Assembly: GCA_020247085.1 (NCBI GenBank)
Contig: JADCJJ010000594.1
Location: forward strand, 1-37,279
Direction: 5' to 3'
Length of the DNA: 37,279 nucleotides
Source: Myxococcaceae bacterium
GTDB taxonomy: Bacteria > Myxococcota > Myxococcia > Myxococcales > Myxococcaceae
Below, piece by piece: positions 85 through 37,279 of the stretch (its first letter is position 1; each line of letters begins with the position of its first letter). Below the pieces are notes generated by a model. That model was not told the DNA's origin. It was given only the letters and a program-made list of their open reading frames with translations, and did not search any database. The position numbers and the translations under genes were made by a program.

Positions 85-1487
85 TCACGAGGGCTGCAGG
101 TCGTACGCCGCCTGCAGCTTCGAGACGAGGCCCTCGACGAGCGTCGGGTCGCTCGTATGGAAGCCCCAGGTGATGCCCCGGCCGCGGCGCTGCAGCAGGG
201 CGTAGGCGAGCCCGTCGCCCAGCCAGAGCAGGAACTCGTGGCGCGCCAGGTGCTCGTCCCCTTCGAGGAAGACCGGCACCACCGTGGCGTGCGAGGCGAG
301 GTCTGCGCGCCGCCCGAGGACGTAGACGCGGGGCGCGAAGTCGCTCACCGGCACGTCGAGCCCGCGGATGATGCCCAGGTCGGCGCGAACGGCCTGTGTC
401 CCGACGTACACGAGGCCCCGGGCGCCGGGGTCGCGCAACAGCTCCCGCGCCACCTCGAGCTGCAGCTCGTCGAACAGCACGTCGGCCACCTTGCCGCGCC
501 GGGCCGGCTCGCCAGCGGTGCCCGGCAGCTTCGGAGAGCGGGCACTGCCCAAGAGCAGCTCGACCTCGTCCCAGAACGGCAGCCGGTCGAGGTGCAGCTG
601 GTGGTGGAGCGAGCCGCGGCGGTCTTCCATGCGCCGCCGGCAGCGCAGCAGCAGCTCGTCGAAGTCGTCGCCGTCACGCGGGAAGGTGGCGCAGCCACCG
701 GTGAGGCCCGACGGCAACCGCGCCTCGAGCGCCTTCCCGTCGGGGTGCTCGCTCACCGACGCGAGCGCCCGCCGCAGGAACATGAGGCCGCCGAAGAAGT
801 CGGTCTCGGGGAGCAGCACGTGGAACTCGTGCTCGCCGGCGCGCGCGACGACGTCGGCGTCTCGCATCATCTGGGTGATCACCTTGGGCACGGTCTGCTG
901 CGCCTGCCGAGAGGCGGCCTGGCCGAGGCGCGCGCGGATACCCGAGAGGTTGTCGAGCGAGAACGTCAGCAGCGAGAACGAGCGGCCATACCGGCGGGCC
1001 TTGTAGATCTCCTTGGTGGCGTAGTCGGTGAAGTAGCCCAGGGTGTAGGCGCCGGTGTCGCGATCGCGCAGCCCCTGGCGCTGCAGCAGCGCGAAGCGGG
1101 CGGCGGTCTTCAGCGCCGCCGCGGCGAAGGCGCCGAAGCGCTGCGCCGTCGCCAGCAGCGGCGCGCCGAAGCCGCCGTTGAGCGAGTCGCCGAGCTGCGC
1201 CAGGCCCTGGGGCTCGCCGCCCGGGCCGACCAGCGGCACGAGGAACGTCTCGCCGCTCACCCACGGGTTCGCCTGGACGATCGCCGGGTCGACCAGCTCG
1301 GGCAGCGCGTGCCTGGCGACGAGGCCCCGCCAGGCCCGTAACCGCAGCCCGCCGCGCTCCCCTGCGACCCACAGCGCGCCTGACTGGGCGCCGCAGTGCT
1401 CGCAGAGCTCCTGCAGGATGCGCTCCTGCAGCACCTCGATGTCCGTGATGCCGACGACGGACAACGCCCTCGCGTCGACGTCGGCCG

Positions 1488-1491
<4 letters not shown>
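85..1491 (-). CDS. GAF domain plus degenerate GGDEF-like signalling protein
   Basis: About 468 aa from a GTG start at 1491, whose GTGA overlaps the dapF stop; an in-frame ATG 45 bp upstream lies inside dapF and is less likely. Residues about 15-140 look like a GAF sensory domain. Residues about 145-270 resemble a diguanylate cyclase domain (RDRDTGAYTLGYFTDYATKE, then DADVVARAGEHEFHVLLPE). The signature is AGEHEF instead of GGDEF, so both the glycine pair and the metal-binding Asp are changed, and cyclase activity is unlikely. The last 190 residues match nothing I recognise. It may be a cytoplasmic receptor or scaffold. The position between dapF and a receiver-domain gene suggests a signalling role, but this is inference. 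Confidence 0.75.
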
Positions 1492-2312
<821 letters not shown>

Positions 2313-2361
2313 AGCCAGCGGGGGCGGCGCACGCGAGGGGTTCCAGGCGCCTCTGGCACGC

Positions 2362-3420
2362 TCAATCCACCAGCACGACGTCGACGCCCTCCTGCTGCGG
2401 GGCCTCGGACGAGGGGTCGAGGAACAGCCACTTGAGGAGCGCGCGGTAGAAGGCGAAGAGCGGCAGCCGCTGGGCGACCTCGTCACGCACCCGCTCGCGC
2501 GTCGACTTGAAGCTGGCGTGACTCTCGCGGGTGAGGCGCTCGCGCTCGTGCAGGAAGTTCGAGAGCGGCTGCACCTGGATCTCGAAGGTCTTGCCGCCCC
2601 AGTGCACCACCGACTTGAGCGCCGTCCACCCCGACTGCTTGCGCGAGGGCCGCTGCAGGTAGTCCTTGTGCTCGACGAACTGGAGCCGCCCGAAGGCCTC
2701 GGCCCGGGGCAGCCCCCGCCGATCGAGCTGCTCCGCGGGGAACTCGAGCTCCTGCAGGTGCGCCTGCACCCGGTAGGCGTCGTCGTCGGCGCCGACCACC
2801 ACCTTGATGCCGAAGACGTCCTTCACGTAGCGGCTCAGGTGCTGCAGCTGCTTGTCGCGCAGGACGATGCGGTCGAGGTCGAAGAGCTCGTCGACGACCT
2901 TGTTCCAGATCTCCTCTTCGGCCTTGATGCGCGTGAGGAGGCGGTAGACGTTGAAGGGGTTCGGCCCGGTCGGCTCGTACTCGACGACGTTCGACACCAG
3001 GGCCGCCCGGCGCCAGCCGCGCTCGTCGGCGATCGCAAGCCGCGCGAGAATGCGCGTGCCGAGGTCGAGGTCGGTCGAGCGCGCCACCTCCTCCTCGGTC
3101 ACGTCGACGGTGATGGTGAAGCGCTCGTGGGTGCGCTCGATCTCGCCGATGGCCGAGCTCCGGAGCCCGAAGGTGCCCAGCAGGCGCTGCGACAACAGGC
3201 CCGCCAGCGCGTGCAGGTCGCGCTCCCCGCGGCGGATCATCGCGCTGAACTCGGCGCGGGCCTGGCTCAGCTTGAGGCGCGAGAAGACCAGCCGGCCTCC
3301 GTTTCCGGCCTCGAGCGTGCCGCGGGCGGTCTGCAGCGCCAGCACCAGCTCGTTCAGCGCCGGCGCCTGGCTCACCATCCACAAGGGGGAGCCGGCGTTC
3401 TCGTCGGGCAGAGCCTCCAT
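2362..3420 (-). CDS. Divergent RelA/SpoT-like nucleotidyltransferase-fold protein
   Basis: 352 aa from the ATG at 3420, with AGGA about 10 bases upstream. The C-terminal half (about 170-320) resembles the (p)ppGpp synthetase fold. YVKDVFGIKVVV corresponds to the D-x-x-G-I-R strand, EHKDYLQRPSRKQSGWTALK to the E-x-KDY-x-x-P...GYxSLH segment, and KTFEIQVQPL to the EIQIRT strand. The metal-binding Asp and catalytic Glu positions therefore appear kept, but GYxSLH and RT are changed. I see no HD hydrolase, TGS or ACT domain. The first 150 residues are not recognised. It may be a small alarmone synthetase-like enzyme or a relative with another substrate. It sits 44 bp after tgt and 49 bp before dapF. 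Confidence 0.55.
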   Translation of the reverse strand: MEALPDENAGSPLWMVSQAPALNELVLALQTARGTLEAGNGGRLVFSRLKLSQARAEFSAMIRRGERDLHALAGLLSQRLLGTFGLRSSAIGEIERTHERFTITVDVTEEEVARSTDLDLGTRILARLAIADERGWRRAALVSNVVEYEPTGPNPFNVYRLLTRIKAEEEIWNKVVDELFDLDRIVLRDKQLQHLSRYVKDVFGIKVVVGADDDAYRVQAHLQELEFPAEQLDRRGLPRAEAFGRLQFVEHKDYLQRPSRKQSGWTALKSVVHWGGKTFEIQVQPLSNFLHERERLTRESHASFKSTRERVRDEVAQRLPLFAFYRALLKWLFLDPSSEAPQQEGVDVVLVD

Positions 3421-3464
3421 GGCCGGCGTCCTACAGAAAGCGCGCGGCGCGCGACAGCGGCCCG

Positions 3465-5450
3465 TCAGCCCCGGAGCCCGGCGAACTGCGGGTGCTCGAG
3501 CACCTGCCGCTCCACCTCGGGCGAGAAGGCCTCGCCGTGCGCGCCGCGGGCCGACGAGCGCCTCCACCGGGTGAGCCAGCGCTCGCCCAGCGGCTGGTCG
3601 AGGTTGGCGAGCTGCGTCGCCGCGTTCGTCGTCTCGGTGCGCGTGCCCGTCGACACCCCCTGCCCGACGAAGAACCCGGCGAGCAAGAACGACACGCGCG
3701 TCGGCGTGGCCGAGCTGTAGGTGACGAGGAGCCCGCCCTCGTCGTTGGTGTGCCCCCGCACCGCGCGCAGGAAGTCCACCGTCCACAGCGCGGGGTTCGC
3801 CTCGGGAGAGAAGGGGTCGAAGAACACCAGGTCGCACCAGCCGGGCACCCCCTCGATGGTCTCCCGCGCGTCACCCACCAGCACACGCCAGTGCAGGCCT
3901 GGCCCGTCCCAGTGGCCATGGCCGAGGAGCGCCTCGGCGGCCGTCCTGAAGGGGACGAGGAAGGGGAAGGCCTCGGGCGCCGAGAGGGCCAGCTCGAGAG
4001 CCGCCAGATCGGCCTCGAGGCTGATGACCTCGAGCTCCCGCCGGCGCTCGGGCCCCAGCGCCTGCGCCCGCGCCAGCGCCGCCACGGCGTTGGCCCCTGC
4101 GCCGAGGCCGACGTCGAGCACGCGCAGGGGCTCCTCGCGGAACACCGAGAGCCGCTGGGCCAGCTTCGTCTGCTCGACGTAGAGGCGGTTGGCCTCTTCC
4201 CAAGGCCCCACCGGGTGCATCACCTCGCCGTGCGCCGTCTGCCGCACCGCGTGCGCGCCGCCGCGCGTCTTCACCACCTCGAAGGCGCCGTGCCGCTGCC
4301 CGGTGGGCCGGGGCTTCGCCGTCCGCGGTGAGAGGCGCTCCACCAGCTCGCGGTACTCGGCCTCCCACCGGCCGGCGACGATGGCCTCGCGCATGCGCCG
4401 CGTCAGCACCTGAAAGTGGCGCAGGTTGTGAACGGCCAGCAGCCGGGTGCCCAGGTGGTGCCCGCCCTGCGTCAGGTGGCGCACGTAGGCGCGGGTGTAG
4501 CGGCGGCAGGCGAGGCAGTCACAGCCTTCGTCGATGGGCGACTCGTCGAAGCGGTACTCGTGCTTGCTGAGCCGCAGCTGCCCCTCGAAGGTGTACGCGT
4601 AGCCCTGCTGCGCCATCTTCGGCGGGATGATGCAGTCCAACATGTCGACGCCCCGGTGCACGCACTCGACCAGATCGATGGGCGTACCCACGCCCATCAG
4701 GTAACGCGGGCGGTCGGCCGGCAGGCGCGGCGCCGTGTGCCCCGTCATCTCGTAGAGCAGCTCCCGCGACTCGCCCACCGCCAGCCCGCCGATGGCGAAC
4801 CCGTCAAAGGGGTGCCCGGTGAGGAAGCTCGCGCTCTCGGTGCGCAGCGGAGGGAACACGCCGCCCTGCACGATGGCGAACAGCGCCTGCCCTGTCGGGT
4901 TTGCGTCACGGGCCGCGAGGCTCCGCAGCGCCCAGCGGTGCGTGCGCTCCATCGCGTCGCGCGTGACGGCCTCGGTCGAGGTCGACGGCGGGCACACGTC
5001 GAGCACCATCATGATGTCGCTGCCGATGGCGTTCTGCGTGGCGATCGAGCTCTCGGGCGACAGCAGGTGCCGGTGGTTGTCGTACGGGCTGCGAAAGCGG
5101 GCGCCCGCCTCGGTGATCTCGCGCTCGCCCGGCAGGCTGAAGATCTGAAAGCCGCCCGAGTCCGTCAGCACGCCGTGCGGCCACTGCATGAAGCCGTGAA
5201 TGCCCTTCGTACGCTCGAACAGCTCGACGCCCGGCCGGAGCAGCAGGTGGTAGGTGTTCGCCAGGCAGAACCGCGCCCCCGAGTCGGCCACGTCGTCCAT
5301 CGTCAGGAAGCGCACGTGAGCGTGCGTCGCCACCGGCATGAACGCTGGCGTCTCGAGGACGCCGCGGCGGGTGTGCAGCCGCCCGGCCCTCGCGCCCGAG
5401 GGCGCGGTCGCGAGGAGCTCGTAGCGGATCGGAGACGTCAGCGGACGCAT
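3465..5450 (-). CDS. tgt: tRNA-guanine(34) transglycosylase fused to MnmC-like methyltransferase
   Basis: 661 aa, against about 375 for ordinary bacterial Tgt. Residues 1-375 form a complete Tgt barrel, which exchanges G34 for preQ1 in tRNAs with GUN anticodons. Visible are the general-base D97 (VLTDSGGFQ), QGG near 195, the nucleophile D272 (GVDMLDCIIP) and a zinc site C310, C312, C315, H341. The loop after the nucleophile reads PPKMAQQG rather than the common PTRNARNG. Residues about 380-655 are a second domain with a SAM-binding strand (LRVLDVGLGAGANAVAAL) and FFDPFSPEANPALWT, typical of the MnmC1/DUF752 methyltransferase family acting on wobble uridines. The fusion joins two wobble-base modifiers in one chain. 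Its promoter must lie in 5451-5520, below the mdh terminator. Confidence 0.9.
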   Translation of the reverse strand: MRPLTSPIRYELLATAPSGARAGRLHTRRGVLETPAFMPVATHAHVRFLTMDDVADSGARFCLANTYHLLLRPGVELFERTKGIHGFMQWPHGVLTDSGGFQIFSLPGEREITEAGARFRSPYDNHRHLLSPESSIATQNAIGSDIMMVLDVCPPSTSTEAVTRDAMERTHRWALRSLAARDANPTGQALFAIVQGGVFPPLRTESASFLTGHPFDGFAIGGLAVGESRELLYEMTGHTAPRLPADRPRYLMGVGTPIDLVECVHRGVDMLDCIIPPKMAQQGYAYTFEGQLRLSKHEYRFDESPIDEGCDCLACRRYTRAYVRHLTQGGHHLGTRLLAVHNLRHFQVLTRRMREAIVAGRWEAEYRELVERLSPRTAKPRPTGQRHGAFEVVKTRGGAHAVRQTAHGEVMHPVGPWEEANRLYVEQTKLAQRLSVFREEPLRVLDVGLGAGANAVAALARAQALGPERRRELEVISLEADLAALELALSAPEAFPFLVPFRTAAEALLGHGHWDGPGLHWRVLVGDARETIEGVPGWCDLVFFDPFSPEANPALWTVDFLRAVRGHTNDEGGLLVTYSSATPTRVSFLLAGFFVGQGVSTGTRTETTNAATQLANLDQPLGERWLTRWRRSSARGAHGEAFSPEVERQVLEHPQFAGLRG

Positions 5451-5519
5451 GGGGCGCCGGCTCTACCAGACCCGCCCGTTGCCAGGCGCCCACAACCGCC
5501 CGGCTCGAGCCGCGGGCCC

Positions 5520-5575
5520 CGAAAAAGACACGAGGCGGAGCGACTCCGGAGAGGCCCCGGAAGTGCTCCGCCTCG
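5520..5575 (-). terminator. Intrinsic terminator of icd-mdh
   Basis: CGAGGCGGAGC at 5531-5541 pairs perfectly with GCTCCGCCTCG at 5565-5575 (11 bp). Inside the loop a second hairpin forms from TCCGG (5545-5549) and CCGGA (5557-5561). On the minus strand the stem is followed closely by TTTTT (5522-5526). This is the clearest Rho-independent terminator in the window and lies 24 bp past the mdh stop. Confidence 0.85.
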
Positions 5576-5598
5576 GAGACGCCCGACGCGAGGTTCGC

Positions 5599-6546
5599 TC
5601 AGCCCAGGAAGCCGCGGGCGATGTTCATCAGCTCGACGTTGGCGGCCACCGACTTCGAGAACGCCTCCTTCTCGCTGGCCGACAACTCGAACTCGTACAC
5701 CTTCTCGGCGCCGCGGGCCGACAGCACCACCGGCACGCCGACGAAGGCATCCTTCACGCCGAACTCGCCCTGGAGCTCGACGGAGCACGGCAGCACGCGC
5801 CGCTGGTTGCGGACGATCGCCTCGACCATCAGGCAGGTGCCGGCGCCCGGCGCGAGCCACGCCGACGTGCCGATGAGCGCCGTGAGCGTCGCCCCACCCT
5901 TCTTGGTGTCCTCGACGACCTTCGTCAGCTGCTCGGCCGAGAGGAACTTCGACACCGGCACGTTGCCGATGGTCGCCGTCGACAGCACCGGCACCATGTC
6001 TTTGTCGGTGTGCGCGCCCAGCACGATGGCGTTGACGTCTTCGACCGACACGCCCGCGGCCATCGAGAGGTAGGTGCGGAAGCGCGCCGAGTCGAGCACA
6101 CCCGCCGAGCCGATGACGCGCTCACGCGGGAAGCCCGTCACCTGCTTGGCGACGAACACCATCGCGTCGAGGGGGTTCGAGACGACGATCAGCACCGAGT
6201 CGGGCGCGTGCGTCTTCACGTGCTTGCAGATGTCGCGGACGATGCCCGCGTTGATGTTGATGAGCTCCTCGCGCGATTGGCCCGGCTTGCGCGGGACGCC
6301 GGCCGTCATCACCACCACGTCGGCGCCGGCCATCGCTTCGGGCTTGTCGGTGGCGACGAAGGTCGTGTTGTTGAAGCCCTCCCACGCGCCGCACTGCGTG
6401 AGGTCGAGGGCGCGCCCCTCGGCCGCCGTCGCCTTGAGGTCGATGAGCACCAGCTCGCCGAGCTCCTTCAGCACGGCCCACTGCGCCACCGCCGCGCCGA
6501 CGTTTCCACCTGCTCCAACGATCGCAATCTTCGGACGCTTGATCAT
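5599..6546 (-). CDS. mdh: Malate dehydrogenase (LDH-like type)
   Basis: Oxidises malate to oxaloacetate with NAD+ in the TCA cycle. 315 aa, a normal length. The Rossmann motif GAGGNVG is at 11-17, and D36 at the end of the second strand suggests NAD preference. The malate-specific loop VPRKPGQSR carries R86 and R92. NPLDAM and LDSARFR supply the Asn and the Asp/Arg pair. The catalytic His is H179, but its motif reads GAHTDKDMVP instead of the usual GGHGDxMVP, one residue longer. GGAG precedes the ATG by about 8 bases. It follows icd by 34 bp and ends in the terminator at 5520-5575, so icd-mdh form a two-gene TCA operon. Confidence 0.94.
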   Translation of the reverse strand: MIKRPKIAIVGAGGNVGAAVAQWAVLKELGELVLIDLKATAAEGRALDLTQCGAWEGFNNTTFVATDKPEAMAGADVVVMTAGVPRKPGQSREELININAGIVRDICKHVKTHAPDSVLIVVSNPLDAMVFVAKQVTGFPRERVIGSAGVLDSARFRTYLSMAAGVSVEDVNAIVLGAHTDKDMVPVLSTATIGNVPVSKFLSAEQLTKVVEDTKKGGATLTALIGTSAWLAPGAGTCLMVEAIVRNQRRVLPCSVELQGEFGVKDAFVGVPVVLSARGAEKVYEFELSASEKEAFSKSVAANVELMNIARGFLG

Positions 6547-6580
6547 GTTCGTTCGTCTCCGGGTTGATGAAGCCTGCCGC

Positions 6581-7897
<1,317 letters not shown>

Positions 7898-8020
7898 TGC
7901 GGGTTTCCTCTTGGAAATTGGCCGCGCGCACCTTGTCAGGGACCAGCGCATTTTCAACGAGAACCTGACGCGCCCTGACGCGTTGTGCAGCGCGGCTGCA
8001 TCGGTGTAGTCACGGCGCTG
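7898..8020. promoter_or_regulatory. Divergent icd / FHA-activator intergenic region
   Basis: This 123 bp gap must hold the icd promoter and probably that of the activator at 8021. It contains an AT-richer patch (about 7950-7962) and a direct repeat of CCTGACGCG at 7964-7972 and 7974-7982, spaced 10 bp apart (one helical turn), which could be a protein-binding site. I see no convincing -24/-12 sigma-54 element. Confidence 0.4.
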
Positions 8021-9358
<1,338 letters not shown>

Positions 9359-30209: not shown

Positions 30210-31673
30210 ATGAACCAGATCCAGAAGACGCTGCTGTCACTCGCCGCCCTGGTCGCCGTCGCCGTGGGCGTCGGCCTCTACGCGTGGCGCGGGGTGCACC
30301 GGGCCGACGAGAAGAAGGCCGCGCAGAGAGACCTCGACGAGCGCCTCTTCGCCCCCGACCGGGTGGAGCGCTCGGTCGACGGCGGCGCACGGGCCGAGTT
30401 CGTGCGGCTGGTCGTCTCGACGCGGGGCGAGCGCACGGTGCTCGAGCGGGCGCCTGGCGGCGCGTGGCGCATCACCGAGCCCCTGTCGGCGAGGGTCGAC
30501 GCCCTCGTCGTCGACGGTGTCGTCAGCCAGCTCCAGACCGCGCGCTTCAAGGCCACCCTCGAGGGCGAGGCCACCGACGCCGAGCTCGAGAAGTACGGCC
30601 TGGCGAACCCCGTCTTCTCGGTCGAGGCCGAGGCCATCGTCGATGGTCGCAAGGCGACGGCTCGGCTCGAGGGCGGCGTCGAGAACCCCTTCGACGGCAG
30701 CATCTTCATGCGCCGCGACGGCAGCCGAACGGTCCAGGTGGCCGAGGGCGGCGTGCGGTGGTCGCTCGCAAAGACGACCTTCGATCTCCGAGACAAGGCC
30801 CTCTTCGGCTTCGACGAGGCCGCCGTCTCGCGCGTCACGCTGAAGAGCGACGCGAACGACTGGAGGCTCGAGCGGCGCGACGACAAGCTCTGGCACTTCA
30901 CCCAGCCCGATGACGCCCTCGCCGATACCGTGTCGGTCACTGGCATGCTGTCGGCGCTGCGCGGCGAGCGCGCGACGGCGTTCGCGGCTGACACCTCTCC
31001 CCAGGCCCTGGCGGCCCTCGGCTTCGACAAGCCCCTGGCGCGGCTGGTCGTCGAGGGTGCTTTCGGCGCAACGACGTTCTCGCTCGCCAGGCCGCCAGGC
31101 GACGCCGGCGAGACGCTCTATGGCCTGCGCGAAGAGGGCGCCGAGCGGCTCGTGGCCCAGGTCTCAGCGACCGCGCGCACGGCGATGGACAAGAACGTAG
31201 CTGAGCTGCGCGACAGGTCGGTGGTGCCCTTCGCCCGGCAGCACGTGACGAAGCTCTCTCTCAAGGGGCGAGAGGGCTCCGTCGTGGTCGAGCGGGCGCC
31301 CGGCACCCAGAGCCTCGAGGCCTGGTCGGTGGTGACGCCCAGGCGAGGGCCGGCGAAGGCCTATCGCGTGGCGAGCGCCCTGTGGCTGCTCTCGGCGGTC
31401 AAGGCTGGCGAGACGATCAGCGAGCACCCCGACGCCTCGTCGCTCGAGCGCTTCGGGCTCGACGACGCGCAGGCGCGCGTCATCACGCTCTCGGGCGAAG
31501 CGGGCGTGCTCGCTGAGCTGCGAATCGGCCGCGCCGTCGACAACAAGGCAGGCGCCTCGTACGCCATGGGGACGCGCAAGGTGATCGTCGAGGTCGACGC
31601 GTCGCGCTTCAACGAGCTGCCCTGGAGCGCCGCCGACCTGATCGACGTGGATGACGCCGGCGCCCCGAAGTGA
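30210..31673 (+). CDS. DUF4340 protein of the Gld-like ABC cluster
   Basis: 487 aa. One N-terminal membrane anchor (about 7-27, LLSLAALVAVAVGVGLYAW) is followed by a long soluble region, expected in the periplasm. It contains repeated modules of similar pattern: VVSTRGERTVLERAPGGAWR, LKSDANDWRLERRDDKLWHF and SLKGREGSVVVERAP, each about 100-130 residues apart. The repeated pattern with linker KYGLANP, LGFDKPLA and FGLDDAQA is typical of DUF4340. The family occurs next to GldG-type genes; its biochemical role is unknown. Expression is probably shared with the three upstream genes. Confidence 0.88.
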   Translation: MNQIQKTLLSLAALVAVAVGVGLYAWRGVHRADEKKAAQRDLDERLFAPDRVERSVDGGARAEFVRLVVSTRGERTVLERAPGGAWRITEPLSARVDALVVDGVVSQLQTARFKATLEGEATDAELEKYGLANPVFSVEAEAIVDGRKATARLEGGVENPFDGSIFMRRDGSRTVQVAEGGVRWSLAKTTFDLRDKALFGFDEAAVSRVTLKSDANDWRLERRDDKLWHFTQPDDALADTVSVTGMLSALRGERATAFAADTSPQALAALGFDKPLARLVVEGAFGATTFSLARPPGDAGETLYGLREEGAERLVAQVSATARTAMDKNVAELRDRSVVPFARQHVTKLSLKGREGSVVVERAPGTQSLEAWSVVTPRRGPAKAYRVASALWLLSAVKAGETISEHPDASSLERFGLDDAQARVITLSGEAGVLAELRIGRAVDNKAGASYAMGTRKVIVEVDASRFNELPWSAADLIDVDDAGAPK

Positions 31674-31700
31674 CGGGCCTCGAGACCGAGTGACGAGCCG

Positions 31701-31717
31701 CGCCCGCTCAGCGGGCG
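31701..31717. terminator. Short hairpin at convergent junction
   Basis: CGCCCGC (31701-31707) and GCGGGCG (31711-31717) form a 7-bp stem whose loop TCA (31708-31710) is the stop codon of the minus-strand M48 gene. There is no U-run. It may terminate transcription of the DUF4340 gene. Confidence 0.35.
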
Positions 31718-32508
31718 AGCTTCGCCTGGATCGCCTTCAGCGCGGCGACGCCCTGCTCGGTCGATGACCAGCCGTTCGCCGCGATGGCGGCGTTGATCTT
31801 CTCGATGCGCTCGGTGTTCGCCGGGTGGGTCGACAGGAAGGTCAGGAGCTCGGGCACCTCGCCCTTCGCGCGGAGCTTCTCGAAAAAGCTCGCCAGCGCC
31901 TTCGGATCGAACCCGGCGGCGTTGGCGTAGCGGGCGCCGTACTGGTCGGCCTCGAGCTCCATGTCGCGCCCGTAGGCGAGGATCGAGCCCTTGCCGACGA
32001 GGGCTGCCGCGAGCTGCGCGACGTCGCTGGGGTCCTTCCCGAGGGCCATCGCCGCGACGGTCTCGAGGCCCTTCGCCGCGACGAGCTGACGGGCCGTGTG
32101 CCGCGCCACGACGTGGGCGAGCTCGTGGCCGAGCACGCCGACGACCTCGGCCTCTGAGTCGGCGGCCAGCAACAGCCCAGTGTACAGGTAGATGCGCCCG
32201 CCGGGGGTGACGAACGCGTTCACCGTCTTCGGGTCGTCGATGACGAAGTACTGCCACTTCACGCCCGGCCGATCCTTGTCCGCGAAGGGGGTGAGCTTCT
32301 GCACGAGGCCGCCGACGTAGAAGCCCACGTCTGGGTTCTCGAGGAACTTCGTGTTCTCCTTCTTGAGCTCCTCGTGCACCTGGAAGCCGAGCTCCGTCTC
32401 CTGCTGATCGCTCACCAGCGTCGCCGCGACGATCTGCTCGGTCTGAGAGCGCTGCATCATGCTGCAGGACGACGAGATGACGACGGCGAGGAGGGGGACG
32501 AACCGCAT
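31708..32508 (-). CDS. M48-family metalloprotease, BepA/LoiP-like, exported
   Basis: 266 aa with AAGGAAG upstream of the ATG at 32508. The N-terminus is a short hydrophobic signal ending ISSSC; the Cys may be lipidated, though the -3 residue is not typical of a lipobox. The zinc site is LGHELAHVVARH (HExxH) with the third ligand in DMELEADQYG. TFLSTHPANTERI near the C-terminus is the family H-P motif. Proteases of this group sit in the periplasm or at the outer membrane and handle misassembled outer-membrane proteins. Unlike BepA, I see no TPR domain. The gene is divergent from the ECF sigma operon, with 480 bp between them. Confidence 0.93.
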   Translation of the reverse strand: MRFVPLLAVVISSSCSMMQRSQTEQIVAATLVSDQQETELGFQVHEELKKENTKFLENPDVGFYVGGLVQKLTPFADKDRPGVKWQYFVIDDPKTVNAFVTPGGRIYLYTGLLLAADSEAEVVGVLGHELAHVVARHTARQLVAAKGLETVAAMALGKDPSDVAQLAAALVGKGSILAYGRDMELEADQYGARYANAAGFDPKALASFFEKLRAKGEVPELLTFLSTHPANTERIEKINAAIAANGWSSTEQGVAALKAIQAKLAR

Positions 32509-32988
32509 GTGCGCTTCCTTTCGGGTGAGCCGCCTGCGTTAGCCCAACTCCTCGCCCCGGGGCACCGCCTTCTCGTCACCCCCGACCGGCCTTCGCGACT
32601 GAGGGGTACGCGACCGAACCCCTCGAATCGACACGCCCCGTCGGCGTCTCACCTGCCCCTTTTCCTTTTCCCGGGTCGGGCGTGTCCATCGACGTCGAGG
32701 GCCCTGCATGGGGCAGCGCCCGGGACCGAGGCGGCAGACCGATGAGACGTGCGCTGGCTGCCGTGCTTGCCCTCTGCGACGGCGCGGTGACCTGCTGGCG
32801 CCTCGGCGGGCAAGGCCCCGCTGCCGGGTGTCCGCCGGGCATCGGTCGCCGGAGCGTGGACCTCACAGGGGAGCCGGCCGTGCGCACTGCGCGCAGCGGC
32901 TGTGCGATGCAACCGAGGACGCTGCCCGCCGCTCGGCGGTCGCTTCGAGCGCGCGGCGCATGCACCCGCGGCGAGCGTGCGCCATAAC
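32509..32988. other. 480-bp gap between M48 and ECF sigma genes, no supported gene
   Basis: Several open frames exist, but their codon choice lacks the strong third-position G/C bias of neighbouring genes and their products match nothing. The plus frame 32682-32987 has a vaguely signal-like MRRALAAVLALC, which I do not accept. The segment includes a pyrimidine tract (about 32652-32668) and overlapping palindromes GTGCGCAC (32880-32887) and CTGCGCGCAG (32887-32896) about 100 bases before the ECF start. It must contain the promoters of both divergent genes, but no -35/-10 pair is convincing. Confidence 0.5.
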
Positions 32989-33543
32989 ATGCACGCCATG
33001 GGTCGCCCGACGCTCGAGGTCATCGCCGGAGGCAGGAGCTCCGGGCGGGCATGGCTCAAGCAGCTGTACGCGACGTATGGCGCGGCCGTGTTCCATCGCT
33101 GCCGCTACCTGTTGAAGGACCCGACAGCCGCCGAGGACGCCATGCAGGACGTGTTCGCGAAGGCGATGGTGAATGAGGCCTCGTTCCGGGGTGAGGCGAG
33201 CCCGATGACGTGGCTGTTGCGCATCGCGACCAACCATTGCCTCAACGTGCTCCGCGAGCGGCGCGCCGCCTGGCACGACCAGTACGAGGCGATGGAGCAG
33301 GTGAAGGGCTCGAGCGCTGGTGGCGCCGGAAGCCTCGAGGCGCGCGACCTCGTGCGCCGCACGCTGGCGCGGTTCGACGTCGAGACCCAGGCAGCGGTCG
33401 TGCACTACTGGGTCGATGATCTGACCCTCGAAGAGGTGGCGCAGGTGCTCGGCCGGTCGGTGCCGACGATCCGTAAGCGGCTGAACGCCTTCACCGCGGC
33501 GACGGGCCAGGCGATGCGCGCCGAAGACGGAGGTGCCACGTGA
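32989..33543 (+). CDS. ECF-type RNA polymerase sigma factor
   Basis: 184 aa from the ATG at 32989; the ATG at 32998 is an alternative. Region 2 spans about 20-90: LKQLYATYGAAVFHRCRYLL, DPTAAEDAMQDVFAKAM and SPMTWLLRIATNHCLNVLRE, with the usual A-E-D-x-x-Q-D-V-F motif. Region 4 (about 125-175) contains LTLEEVAQVLGRSVPTIRKRL, the helix-turn-helix that reads the -35 element. It has no region 3, as expected for the ECF group. The stop overlaps the next gene's GTG (GTGA), and that gene encodes a membrane protein with an anti-sigma zinc-finger-like motif, so the pair should be regulator and anti-regulator. Confidence 0.93.
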   Translation: MHAMGRPTLEVIAGGRSSGRAWLKQLYATYGAAVFHRCRYLLKDPTAAEDAMQDVFAKAMVNEASFRGEASPMTWLLRIATNHCLNVLRERRAAWHDQYEAMEQVKGSSAGGAGSLEARDLVRRTLARFDVETQAAVVHYWVDDLTLEEVAQVLGRSVPTIRKRLNAFTAATGQAMRAEDGGAT

Positions 33544-34313
33544 GCGCGGTCGAGCTGAAGCACCCGGGGGCCCTCACGCTGCGGCGGCTGCGGGCCGGCG
33601 AGGCGGTCGAAGAGGCCACGCGCGCCCACGTCGCGGCCTGCGCCCGCTGCACGACCGCGCTCGGGGCGCTCGACGCGGAGCAGGCGCAGTTCGAGCTGGA
33701 GCTGCCGTTCGAGCGGTTCGCCGCCGGCGTCGAGCGGGCGGCACGGCAGGCCTCGCGCCCAGCCCCCGGCCAGCGGTGGCGGGCGCCGGCGCTCGCGCTC
33801 GCGGCGGGCCTGCTGGTGATCGCCGGCGCGCAGCTGGTGCTCGCCCGGGTCGAGCCCGAGATGGCCCATGGCACCCGGCTCAAGGGCGGCGCGCAGCTCG
33901 AGGTCATCGTCGCTGGCGCGGGCGCCCAGCGCCGGGCGTCATCGGCCCCGTCGGTACCCGAGGTGCTGGCCCCAGGGGAGCGCGTGCGCGTGGGGCTCAC
34001 CGCGGCGCCCTTCCGCTACTGCCTCGTCGTCAGCATCGACGAGCGGGGCGCGCTGACGCCGATCTACGCCGACGGCGCCCGCAGCCTGGCGCTCCCCGCC
34101 GGCGAAGGCACGACGTGGCTGCCCGACAGCCTCGAGTTCACCGGCGCGGGGCTCGAGCGCGTCGTCGTCGTGCTGTCGGCGACGCCGCTCACCGTAGAGC
34201 AGGTGGGCGCGGCGCTCCGCGAGGCCTACCAGACCGCGGGCGGCGCGCTGACGAGGCTGGGCGAGCTGAACCTGCCGGGCGCGCAGTTCCACCGGACGTT
34301 CCTCAAGCCGTGA
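33540..34313 (+). CDS. Membrane anti-sigma-like protein with periplasmic DUF4384-like domain
   Basis: 257 aa from a GTG overlapping the ECF stop. Residues 30-37 read HVAACARC, an HxxxCxxC motif as in zinc-finger (ZAS) anti-sigma factors, in the cytoplasmic part. One membrane helix spans about 82-102 (APALALAAGLLVIAGAQLVL). The part beyond it (about 130-235), starting VLAPGERVRVGLTAAPFRYC and continuing VVSIDERGALTPIY, resembles DUF4384, a domain often found with caspase-like proteins. It would hold the sigma factor at the membrane until a signal reaches the outer domain. The next gene, for a caspase-like protein, overlaps by 4 bp (GTGA). Confidence 0.8.
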   Translation: MSAVELKHPGALTLRRLRAGEAVEEATRAHVAACARCTTALGALDAEQAQFELELPFERFAAGVERAARQASRPAPGQRWRAPALALAAGLLVIAGAQLVLARVEPEMAHGTRLKGGAQLEVIVAGAGAQRRASSAPSVPEVLAPGERVRVGLTAAPFRYCLVVSIDERGALTPIYADGARSLALPAGEGTTWLPDSLEFTGAGLERVVVVLSATPLTVEQVGAALREAYQTAGGALTRLGELNLPGAQFHRTFLKP

Positions 34314-35974
34314 CGTCCCTGCCTCCACGGCGCAGCTTGCTCGCCGCGCTGGTGCTCGGCGGCCTCGTCACGTCGGCATCGCGCGCCCAGGCGCCGTCAT
34401 CGGAGTCGCCACCCTCGCCTCCCCGGAGCACGACCGCGACGCGCCGCTTCGCGCTCTTCGTGGGCAACAACGAGGGCGGCGAGGGCACGCGCCCGCTGCT
34501 GTACGCCGCCGACGACGCGCGGCGCATGCACGACGTGCTGGTGCGGCTGGGCGGCACCGCGCCGGCCGACGCGATGCTGCTCGTCGATCAACCCGCCGAC
34601 GACGTGCTCACCGCGCTCGGCGAGCTCGAGCGCAGGGCCCGCGACGCCCGGGGCCGCGGCGAGCGCACCACCCTCTTCTTTTACTTCTCGGGCCACGCGA
34701 AGGACGGCGCGCTGCGTCTGGGGGCGACGAAGCTGTCGCTCGAGTCGGTGAAGGCGCGCCTGGCGCAGGGCCCGACGGACATGCGGGTGGCGGTGTTCGA
34801 CGCGTGCCGCTCGGGAGCGCTCACGCGCACCAAGGGCGTCAGGCGGGCGCCGGCGTTCGAGGTCGAGTCCGACACGACGCGCGCCGCGAAGGGCCTGGTC
34901 ATACTCACCTCGAGCGCCTCGGACGAGGACTCGCAGGAGTCAGACCAGATCGGCGCGAGCTACTTCTCGTACCACCTCGCCAGCGGGCTCCTGGGGAGCG
35001 CGGACCAGAGCGGCGACGGGCGCGTCAGCCTGTCCGAGGCCTACGCGTACGCCTACGAGCGTACCGTCGCCTCCACCGCCGACAGCGCCGCCGGCCCGCA
35101 GCACCCGACCTTCAGCTTCGACCTGGCAGGCAATGGAGACCTCGTGCTGACCGACGTGCTGCGCCGCCGCGAAGGGCTTCGGCTCCCCGCCGAGGCGCCG
35201 GTGGGCACCTACTTCCTCATCGACCGGAGGGGCGTGGTGGTGGCCGAGCTGACGAAGGCCGACGCCGAGCGGGTGATCGCGCTGCCCGCCGGCACCTACA
35301 CGGTGAAGCGGCGGCTGGCCGACCGGCTACGCGTCGGAGCGGTTCAGATCATCGAGGGGCAGGTGACGACGCTCGACGAGCGCGCCTTGTCGAACGCCCG
35401 CTTCTCTGACGACCCCGTGAAGGGCACGGGGCTGTCGACGACCTACACGCGGCACTGGAGCCTCTCGGCCACCGGGCAATACCAGGCGGTCTTCGACGCG
35501 CCCCCGAGCGCCGGCGGACTGTTCCCCTCGGCGCCGATGGTGGGTGGCGAGGGCACGGTGCACAACTTCTTCGGCCGCGGCTTCGCCTGGAGCTTCGACG
35601 TGCAGTACGGGTGGGCGAGCGCCAGCGTCTTCACGCCGCGGCTGGGGAGCGCGCTCGGTTACCGCTACGGGCTGCTGAACGTCGGCACCTCGCTGCTCTA
35701 CGAGTGGAACCAGGAGGGCGCGTGGGTGCCGTTCGTCGGGGCCCGCGTGGGGTTGTCGCTCATGAGCCGGGAGTTCGACGACCCCGGCTTCGCGCGGCAG
35801 GGGTTCACCACGATGAGCCCGGGCGTGGTGTTGGGGCTCAAGCTTCGGATCGGGCGTTCGTTCGGCCTCGTCGGCCGCGGCCGGGTGCACTACCTGCTGT
35901 ACAACGTCGATGAGACGCGCAGCCTCGGGTACGCCGAGCTGGGGCTGCTGCTCTCGTACGAGTTCCGGGACTGA
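34310..35974 (+). CDS. Exported caspase-fold (C14) protein with C-terminal beta-barrel-like domain
   Basis: 554 aa from a GTG at 34310 overlapping the upstream stop. A signal peptide covers about 1-28 (RRSLLAALVLGGLVTSASRA, cleavage near AQA). The caspase p20-like domain spans about 45-290: RRFALFVGNNEG, then TTLFFYFSGHAKDG with H129 and RVAVFDACRSGAL with C166, the complete His-Cys dyad. ASYFSYHLASGLLGSADQSG is the p10-like part. A small beta domain follows (about 300-365, GTYFLIDRRGVVVAEL, PAGTYTVKR). The last 170 residues (about 385-554) alternate aromatic and small residues in strand-like stretches (WSFDVQYGWASASVF, LLYEWNQEGAWVPF) and end SYEFRD, suggesting an outer-membrane barrel. Export of a caspase fold is unusual; the substrate is unknown. 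Confidence 0.85.
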   Translation: MTSLPPRRSLLAALVLGGLVTSASRAQAPSSESPPSPPRSTTATRRFALFVGNNEGGEGTRPLLYAADDARRMHDVLVRLGGTAPADAMLLVDQPADDVLTALGELERRARDARGRGERTTLFFYFSGHAKDGALRLGATKLSLESVKARLAQGPTDMRVAVFDACRSGALTRTKGVRRAPAFEVESDTTRAAKGLVILTSSASDEDSQESDQIGASYFSYHLASGLLGSADQSGDGRVSLSEAYAYAYERTVASTADSAAGPQHPTFSFDLAGNGDLVLTDVLRRREGLRLPAEAPVGTYFLIDRRGVVVAELTKADAERVIALPAGTYTVKRRLADRLRVGAVQIIEGQVTTLDERALSNARFSDDPVKGTGLSTTYTRHWSLSATGQYQAVFDAPPSAGGLFPSAPMVGGEGTVHNFFGRGFAWSFDVQYGWASASVFTPRLGSALGYRYGLLNVGTSLLYEWNQEGAWVPFVGARVGLSLMSREFDDPGFARQGFTTMSPGVVLGLKLRIGRSFGLVGRGRVHYLLYNVDETRSLGYAELGLLLSYEFRD

Positions 35975-35979
35975 CTGCG

Positions 35980-36912
35980 ATGCGACGCCTCCTCTGCCCT
36001 GCCCTGCTCGTCGTCACCGCCTGCGGAGGGAACTGGTCGAACGCCGACCTCGAGTTCTCCGCGGCGCTGCCGTGGAGGCGAGAGCTCGGCTCGACCCTGC
36101 CGACGAGCGCGTCGACGGGCCAACCGCTGTCACGTCAGGACGGCCTCAACGCCGGGGAGCCGTCGCAGGCCTACGTCGACACGAAGAAGGCGGTGACGGA
36201 CTTCAACGGGCTGCTCGACTTCTTCCTCGGGGTGATCGACACGGTGCGCGCGCAGCCGCCATCGAGCCGCGCCGACGAGGCGCGCACCTGGGGGCCCTTC
36301 GTGGCCGCCGACCTGCCCGGGTACCAGTTCCAGGTGACGATCACCCGCACCGCGAGCGAGCCGCGAGAGACGTTCGCCTGGAGCATTCAGGCGCGGAGGT
36401 TCGGCGAGGCTGACTTCTTCGACCTGGTCCGCGGCGACTTCCAGGCGTCGCCCGAGACGGTGCGGCGCGGGGTGGGGACGATCGAGGTGCCGGTGAAGGA
36501 GGTGCGCGCGAGGGCGACGTTGCCGGCCGAGTTGCAGCAGCTCGACCGGGTGTCGATCGGCTACCAGACATCGACCTTCCCGCAGACGACGCAGATGGGC
36601 TTCACCTTCGCGGCGGGCAACCCCATCGGGCTCTCGCAGGGCGGCTACCGCTCGGAGCGCCGGGAGGACGGCGCCGGAGCGCTGGTGTTCTCGCTCAGCT
36701 CGCTCGACCCGAACCTGCGTCGCGCGACGGTGCGCAGCCGGTGGCTCGTGGACGGGAGCGGCGCGGCGGTGCTCACCGTCGACGAGGGCACGTACCGGGG
36801 CGCCACGCGCTCGGAGTGCTGGAACGCCCAGTACAAGGTGACGTGGTTCAAGGAGAGCTGGCCCGGAGGCAAGGAGTCGGGCCGCCAGGCCGACTGCCCC
36901 GCGGGGAACTGA
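35980..36912 (+). CDS. Lipoprotein of unknown function in the ECF-caspase operon
   Basis: 310 aa. The N-terminus MRRLLCPALLVVTACGGNWS is a lipoprotein signal with lipobox VTAC, so the mature protein should start at C15. I recognise no domain. The body has mixed beta-strand character (YQFQVTITRTASEPRETFAW, RVSIGYQTSTFPQTTQMGFT) and two further cysteines near the C-terminus (RSECWNAQ, RQADCPAG) that may form a disulfide. The gene starts 5 bp after the caspase gene, with no promoter space, so it is almost certainly part of the same operon. It may be a partner or target of the caspase-like protein; this is inference from position only. Confidence 0.82.
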   Translation: MRRLLCPALLVVTACGGNWSNADLEFSAALPWRRELGSTLPTSASTGQPLSRQDGLNAGEPSQAYVDTKKAVTDFNGLLDFFLGVIDTVRAQPPSSRADEARTWGPFVAADLPGYQFQVTITRTASEPRETFAWSIQARRFGEADFFDLVRGDFQASPETVRRGVGTIEVPVKEVRARATLPAELQQLDRVSIGYQTSTFPQTTQMGFTFAAGNPIGLSQGGYRSERREDGAGALVFSLSSLDPNLRRATVRSRWLVDGSGAAVLTVDEGTYRGATRSECWNAQYKVTWFKESWPGGKESGRQADCPAGN

Positions 36913-36925
36913 CGCGGCGGTGGCG

Positions 36926-37279
36926 CTGCCGAAGCGCGGAGGCGGCTCCACGACGGCGCACCTTCGGCCTGCGCGTCGAGGTGGGCCCACGGGTGGACCC
37001 ATTCACGGGTCGCACGCACCGCATCCACCCGCCGCAGCGTCGCCCCAGAAGCGTGGTGGCGGCTCCACGGCGGCGCACCTTCAGCGCACGCGTCGAGGTG
37101 AGCCCACGGGGTGGAGCCATTCACGGGTCGCACGCACCGTGTCCACTTGCCGCAGCTTCACTGCCGAAGCGCGGAGGCGGCTCCACGGCGGCGCACCTTC
37201 GGTGTGCGCGTTGAGGTGGCCCCACGGGTGGAGCCATTCACGGGTCGCACGCACCGCATCCACCCGCCGCAGCGTCGCC
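36926..37279. repeat. Tandem repeat, three units of 117-118 bp, running off the window
   Basis: Three near-identical units fill the 367 bp after the last gene. The marker GGCGGCTCCA starts at 36941, 37058 and 37176. A second marker, CATTCACGGGTCGCACGCA, starts at 37000, 37118 and 37235. Spacings are 117/118 and 118/117 bp, so a single-base length change breaks any common reading frame. Open frames on both strands across the repeat are therefore not conserved as protein repeats. The units differ by scattered substitutions (for example gaagcgcgga and gaagcgtggt). The array may continue beyond the window. No other gene is seen here. Confidence 0.85.

Follow-up and report, generated by a model that had tools for sequence, protein, structure and literature searches.

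What caspases do in bacteria is still largely a matter of conjecture, with cell death the role most often proposed. In E. coli, sigma-E is governed by RseA, DegS and RseP, a system (also cited in PMC10028731) with an inner-membrane anti-sigma factor that has a periplasmic domain and receives its first cut in the periplasm. Closer in gene content are the operons described by Asplund-Samuelsson et al., 2012 (PMC3501461), who reported sigma factors in metacaspase operons, four of them in M. xanthus and others in Anaeromyxobacter, Haliangium and Sorangium. In the Type III-E Craspase system, a caspase-like protease (Csx29), an ECF inhibitor (Csx30) and an ECF sigma factor (CASP-sigma) are coded together, and cleavage of Csx30 by Csx29 relieves the sigma factor (PMC10028731). 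Caspase-type proteases with a CHAT domain are also found in the genomic context of the ECF54 group, for which proteolytic control has been proposed (PMC8999054).

Four genes of this general kind lie on the plus strand of the window, by which we mean the whole stretch of 37,279 nucleotides that was analysed. They encode an ECF sigma factor (32998-33543), a membrane anti-sigma factor (33540-34313), an exported caspase of family C14 (34310-35974) and a lipoprotein, lipo2 (35980-36912). The close packing noted in the preliminary description was confirmed from the reading frames and the sequence: the first two genes share the four bases GTGA at 33540-33543, with the anti-sigma gene starting at GTG 33540; the next two share another GTGA at 34310-34313, with the caspase gene starting at GTG 34310; and 5 bp separate the caspase stop, ending at 35974, from the ATG of lipo2 at 35980. 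The order and packing therefore stand as first described, but the start of the unit at 32989 does not, since the sigma orthologs align only from residue 4 and the conserved start is thus ATG 32998; the functional unit itself begins at a promoter element, at 32661. No sigma-70 promoters or intrinsic terminators were found within 32000-37279. Directly after the operon, a 117-bp unit is present in three head-to-tail copies (84% matches) at 36926-37276, reaching the contig end.

The sigma factor, of about 180 amino acids, consists of the sigma2 and sigma4 regions only, as is characteristic of ECF (group IV sigma-70) factors; it matches TIGR02937 above the cut-off (8.7e-21) and Sigma70_r2 at 5.9e-14, with Sigma70_r4_2 just below the cut-off (2e-5). 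With a sigma-70-family gene and a caspase-domain gene in one predicted operon, the locus is of the type reported in 2012, several of which may occur in one myxobacterial genome, and the earlier remark that no named system has this set is, in that wording, not supported. The accessible part of that paper does, however, suggest a role in cell death and names no anti-sigma factor, DUF4384 domain, barrel, lipoprotein, promoter, regulon or mechanism (PMC3501461). A literature search, with most subscription papers outside its coverage, yielded no follow-up to the published pairing. Found here beyond that pairing are an OmpA/NspA-type barrel, a DUF4384-like anti-sigma domain, a promoter element of fixed spacing and a juxtamembrane R-x-K-G motif. 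The Craspase protease differs from the present one in being a cytoplasmic, RNA-triggered TPR-CHAT protein without a membrane anti-sigma factor, barrel or lipoprotein (PMC10028731); a Type III-E Craspase is marked by the CRISPR effector gRAMP/Cas7-11 with TPR-CHAT and Csx30, and the present locus is not of that type, as no TPR-CHAT region was found in the caspase and there are no CRISPR genes here, the neighbours of the caspase gene in the operon and its conserved flank being genes for the sigma factor, the anti-sigma factor, the lipoprotein, the M48 protein and the DUF4340 protein. ECF54, for its part, is without an anti-sigma factor (PMC8999054), whereas the operon studied here has one, which is the proposed substrate.

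A caspase ortholog, full-length or split between contigs, is present in about 47 of 59 Myxococcaceae genomes, as counted from the matches listed, and where the DNA flanking the ortholog is present the order sigma, anti-sigma, caspase, lipoprotein is nearly always kept. The search of relatives that the preliminary description had proposed thus came out in its favour, the contrary outcome being an order conserved in no relative, and it supports the description of a single conserved operon of ECF factor, membrane anti-sigma factor, exported barrel caspase and lipoprotein. Measured against L008, dN/dS is about 0.18 for the sigma factor, 0.33 for the anti-sigma factor, 0.20 for the caspase and 0.35 for the lipoprotein. 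The two genes upstream (window 30210-32508), which encode a DUF4340 protein and an M48 lipoprotein metalloprotease, stay beside the operon in many relatives. Seven caspase genes are found in the source genome; all six that could be tested for pairing (the seventh, at a contig edge, was left out) are preceded at a distance of about 1.1-1.4 kb by an ECF gene of the same orientation, which is not a chance pairing given a background of 55 Sigma70_r2 matches in 7.36 Mb. Several individual loci may also be recorded. L310 (G054) 1803-3177 is a decaying operon in which lipo1 (see below) and the sigma gene are truncated and the caspase gene is a stub, with the anti-sigma gene and the promoter element intact; G104 has a promoter element like that of G054. 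At L309 (G064) 1110-8987, a second-copy caspase operon lies between two cassettes for an exported CxxCH protein, a lipoprotein and a twin-arginine-type lipoprotein, and the caspase reading frame at L019 7908-8804 is about 300 residues longer at its N-terminus.

The caspase comprises a signal peptide (residues 1 to about 27), a caspase domain (42-285; Peptidase_C14, 8.5e-12 in Pfam), a beta linker (289-365) and a C-terminal eight-stranded barrel (382-554). Its AF2 model, with a mean pLDDT of 82, shows the signal helix, the caspase fold, the linker and eight long strands (382-552), and Foldseek relates the barrel to OmpA (3.3e-9) and NspA (6.8e-9) and the remainder to the Yca1 metacaspase (9e-8) and to caspases; a sequence profile of the barrel matches NspA at 0.0023. 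Eight antiparallel strands together with an export signal make this a predicted OmpA/NspA-type barrel, expected to hold the caspase, itself periplasmic, at the outer membrane. Judging from known barrels, the N-terminus of an even-stranded barrel, and hence the caspase domain, would lie in the periplasm, so that the catalytic domain should face that compartment from the outer membrane. Alignment to the metacaspase His and Cys places the catalytic dyad at H129 and C166 (codons 34694-34696 and 34805-34807, plus strand), and the fold and dyad are those of a C14 orthocaspase or metacaspase; the dyad is retained in 38 of the 38 ortholog loci examined. Also retained are D69 and D164, aligned to metacaspase Asp positions, which we take to be the acids of the Arg/Lys pocket, as in TbMCA2. 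With these acidic positions kept, the caspase is a candidate for Arg/Lys specificity. Orthocaspases cleave after basic residues (PMC6426788).

In the anti-sigma factor, alignment of orthologs reveals a zinc site of H8 and H30-x3-C34-x2-C37, one transmembrane helix (about 82-102) and a periplasmic DUF4384-like domain. The N-terminal H-xn-H-x3-C-x2-C array, adjoining an ECF gene and lying before a transmembrane helix, is the ZAS motif, and the sequence supports a ZAS-type inner-membrane protein that is the putative inhibitor of the sigma factor. The Pfam evidence comes largely from relatives: the protein itself matches no family above the cut-off, giving only a sub-threshold DUF4384 match (0.012), while among 15 related anti-sigma factors zf-HC2 was detected in 2 and DUF4384 in 6 (best 2.9e-6), and the sole DUF4384 above the cut-off in the source genome belongs to the anti-sigma factor of another caspase operon. 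H8 is nearly invariant; H30, C34 and C37 are kept in orthologs and lost in about 6 of 25 relatives across the phylum.

More strongly conserved than these ligands (19/25) is a juxtamembrane motif, R113-L-K115-G116, encoded at 33876-33887 on the plus strand, some 11 residues past the helix. In the 25 phylum anti-sigma factors K115 is the sole invariant residue, G116 is kept in 24 and R113 in 23, so that R-x-K-G is the most conserved feature of the protein and a candidate site of caspase cleavage. K-G follows the helix in 16 of 16 DUF4384 proteins that adjoin both an ECF and a caspase gene and in none of about 10 DUF4384 proteins without a sigma factor, the latter being a weak control, since their architecture differs. 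Two sigma-linked anti-sigma factors have no caspase alongside; one (L254/L306, G018) keeps RFKG and the other (L263/L307, G036) is without KG. The motif could instead have a structural role, marking where the periplasmic domain starts, and not be a cleavage site. The association of DUF4384 with caspases extends beyond this operon: of the 73 DUF4384 domains in 58 Myxococcota genomes, at least 39 adjoin a caspase domain in the same orientation, which 38 of these precede by 159-305 bp, and in cyanobacteria 23 cases of DUF4384 fused to orthocaspases have been reported (PMC8283722).

Most relatives have an ancestral fifth gene at the front of the operon, encoding a paralogous lipoprotein, lipo1, and lipo2 is a paralog of this lost gene product, with about 25% identity to it and a lipidation cysteine, C15, that is invariant in the ortholog alignment. 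What is left of lipo1 in the window is its 3' end, at 32946-32997 on the plus strand, recognised by a blastn match (32946-33098) to L008 and L009 that runs across the end of lipo1 and the start of the sigma gene; alignments of 32690-32945 scored barely above shuffled sequences, and we therefore limit the remnant to the 3' end. No other copy of lipo1 was found in the source genome, nor was the gene found in G088, G086 or G081. The AF2 model of lipo2 is beta-rich (pLDDT 86); no Pfam family matched it and Foldseek gave no known fold below 0.001. A resemblance to an OspA-like sheet was considered and is not trusted, the best VIA match having a Z of 9.6 and an rmsd of 5.6 over 158 residues.

The promoter element, TTTCCTTTT-N12-GTGTC, lies at 32661-32686 on the plus strand and recurs at fixed spacing upstream of orthologous operons, with the consensus TTTC[TC]GTTT-N12-GTGTCCAT. 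Among the 37 genomes with a sigma-bearing operon and its upstream DNA, 34 have it exactly before the first operon gene and the other three with one extra base in the spacer (13 bases); the chance expectation in the whole window, with one mismatch allowed, is 0.13. In operons lacking lipo1 it is the sigma gene that the element precedes, and in L118, from another family, it is lipo2. Its -35-like box is T-rich and not the usual GGAAC, of which no boxes were found. Such a conserved element before the first gene is a sign of the autoregulation proposed in the preliminary description, and its co-occurrence with the operon leads us to infer that the cognate sigma factor reads it. The element was not found before the paralogous caspase sigma genes of the source genome and so looks specific to this ortholog group.

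Elsewhere in the genomes the element mostly precedes genes for lipoproteins or exported proteins, so the circuit probably has an outside regulon; that it is self-contained, as had been suggested, is not supported. Across the 59 genomes a relaxed pattern is about 10 times commoner than its reversed control. Among 27 strict sites outside the operon, 12 have a lipoprotein start within 140 bases and 11 a signal-peptide-like start (at least 4 of these 11 look false on reading, for example kinases), compared with 3% and 11%, respectively, at random positions. Among the targets are CotH kinases, pectinacetylesterase-like lipoproteins, a polysaccharide lyase and the exported CxxCH protein. The last of these is present in about 19 of 24 operon-bearing genomes and in none of 10 in which the operon is lacking or decayed (counts that ignore kinship); its gene flanks second-copy operons and, by pattern, has the element in 9 of 29 copies. 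In the source genome a search for its ortholog gave only a weak match of 77 residues, and two further element sites, one with a mismatch, precede lipoprotein genes. A shared C-terminal tag on the regulon proteins, looked for with a sortase in mind, was not seen beyond one orthologous family. In genera g5 and g2 (L220, L222, L190 and L218) a serine/threonine kinase gene closely follows the element pattern or a variant of it. At many sites in L187-L204 only about 34-41 bases separate the first T from the start codon, a distance that suggests very short leaders or leaderless transcripts.

The preliminary description saw the sigma factor as switching on an envelope caspase module. The ECF factor, the anti-sigma factor, the barrel caspase, the operon and the signs of autoregulation all agree with this; a caspase that is mere output is, in that form, not supported. 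The reading we favour, at a probability of roughly 45%, is that the caspase cleaves the anti-sigma factor at RxK|G and so frees a sigma factor that is autoregulated and serves an envelope regulon. The barrel, the lipoprotein or the DUF4384 domain would sense an envelope signal, whereupon the caspase would cut after the Lys of the juxtamembrane R-x-K-G, as the first step of regulated proteolysis; the intramembrane and cytoplasmic proteases usual in such pathways would break down the trimmed anti-sigma factor; and the freed sigma factor would transcribe the operon itself together with a small regulon of lipoprotein and exported-protein genes. The caspase would thus be the dedicated site-1, or DegS-like, protease of the pair. 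As with RseA, the proposed substrate is an inner-membrane anti-sigma factor with a periplasmic domain that would first be cut in the periplasm; in contrast to DegS, the protease would be of the cysteine type and held at the outer membrane, and its gene lies in the operon and is conserved together with that of the anti-sigma factor.

Were the caspase output only, as first supposed, other proteases would free the sigma factor, and the proteins that it then switches on, a caspase tethered to the outer membrane and lipoproteins, would serve to process, recycle or defend the proteins of the envelope. This we regard as a doubtful though serious contender: the caspase gene is packed downstream of the sigma gene behind the same promoter element, and the exported proteins and lipoproteins of the regulon could be its substrates, but in all the paralogous operons the caspase is tightly paired with the sigma and anti-sigma factors, not with lipo2, and the RxKG of the anti-sigma factor is invariant. 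G071 (L149 4612-7991) bears on both sides. A clean natural deletion has removed lipo1, sigma and anti-sigma there, and the genome has no copies of the promoter element; caspase and lipo2 are retained, as output alone would allow, and since the dyad of this caspase is intact it may have another role, but its AYAYAY and QHP residues, invariant elsewhere, are lost along with the sigma and anti-sigma factors. Such a loss, the invariant RxKG and the DUF4384-caspase link suggest that at least part of the caspase's action lies upstream, on the anti-sigma factor. Adjacency and fusion of DUF4384 and caspases would also fit an association without cleavage, in which DUF4384 docks on the caspase or the beta linker, and docking or release on a signal alters the hold of the anti-sigma factor on sigma; this seems improbable, as the catalytic dyad is retained at every ortholog locus and conservation in the anti-sigma factor is highest in a short basic motif of the linker and not on the surface of a domain. 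We give very little credence to programmed cell death, with the caspase as an executioner released in stress or development, the role that the 2012 paper (PMC3501461) suggested for metacaspases of M. xanthus, for this caspase is exported and predicted to be membrane-tethered rather than cytoplasmic, genomes carry up to about 13 matches to it, and the regulon sites precede lipoproteins and exported enzymes. Taken together, RxKG, the K-G pattern, the adjacency and fusion of DUF4384 and caspases, the basic specificity of orthocaspases and G071 indirectly favour a protease of the anti-sigma factor over a caspase that is merely output.

In its widest form, offered tentatively and at odds short of even, the proposal extends to the whole phylum: a class of anti-sigma factors would be under the control of dedicated caspases, periplasmic and tethered to the outer membrane, which would cut them at a conserved juxtamembrane R-x-K|G. 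With several such copies in parallel per genome, bacteria would have a caspase-operated pathway of envelope-to-gene signalling with a regulon of lipoproteins and exported enzymes. If true, most myxobacterial caspases would be signalling proteases of ECF sigma factors, and with substrate, cut site (RxK|G), promoter and target list defined, the question becomes directly testable in M. xanthus. DUF4384 beside caspases would then acquire a meaning, and the Craspase-Csx30-sigma cascade would have its counterpart at the envelope.
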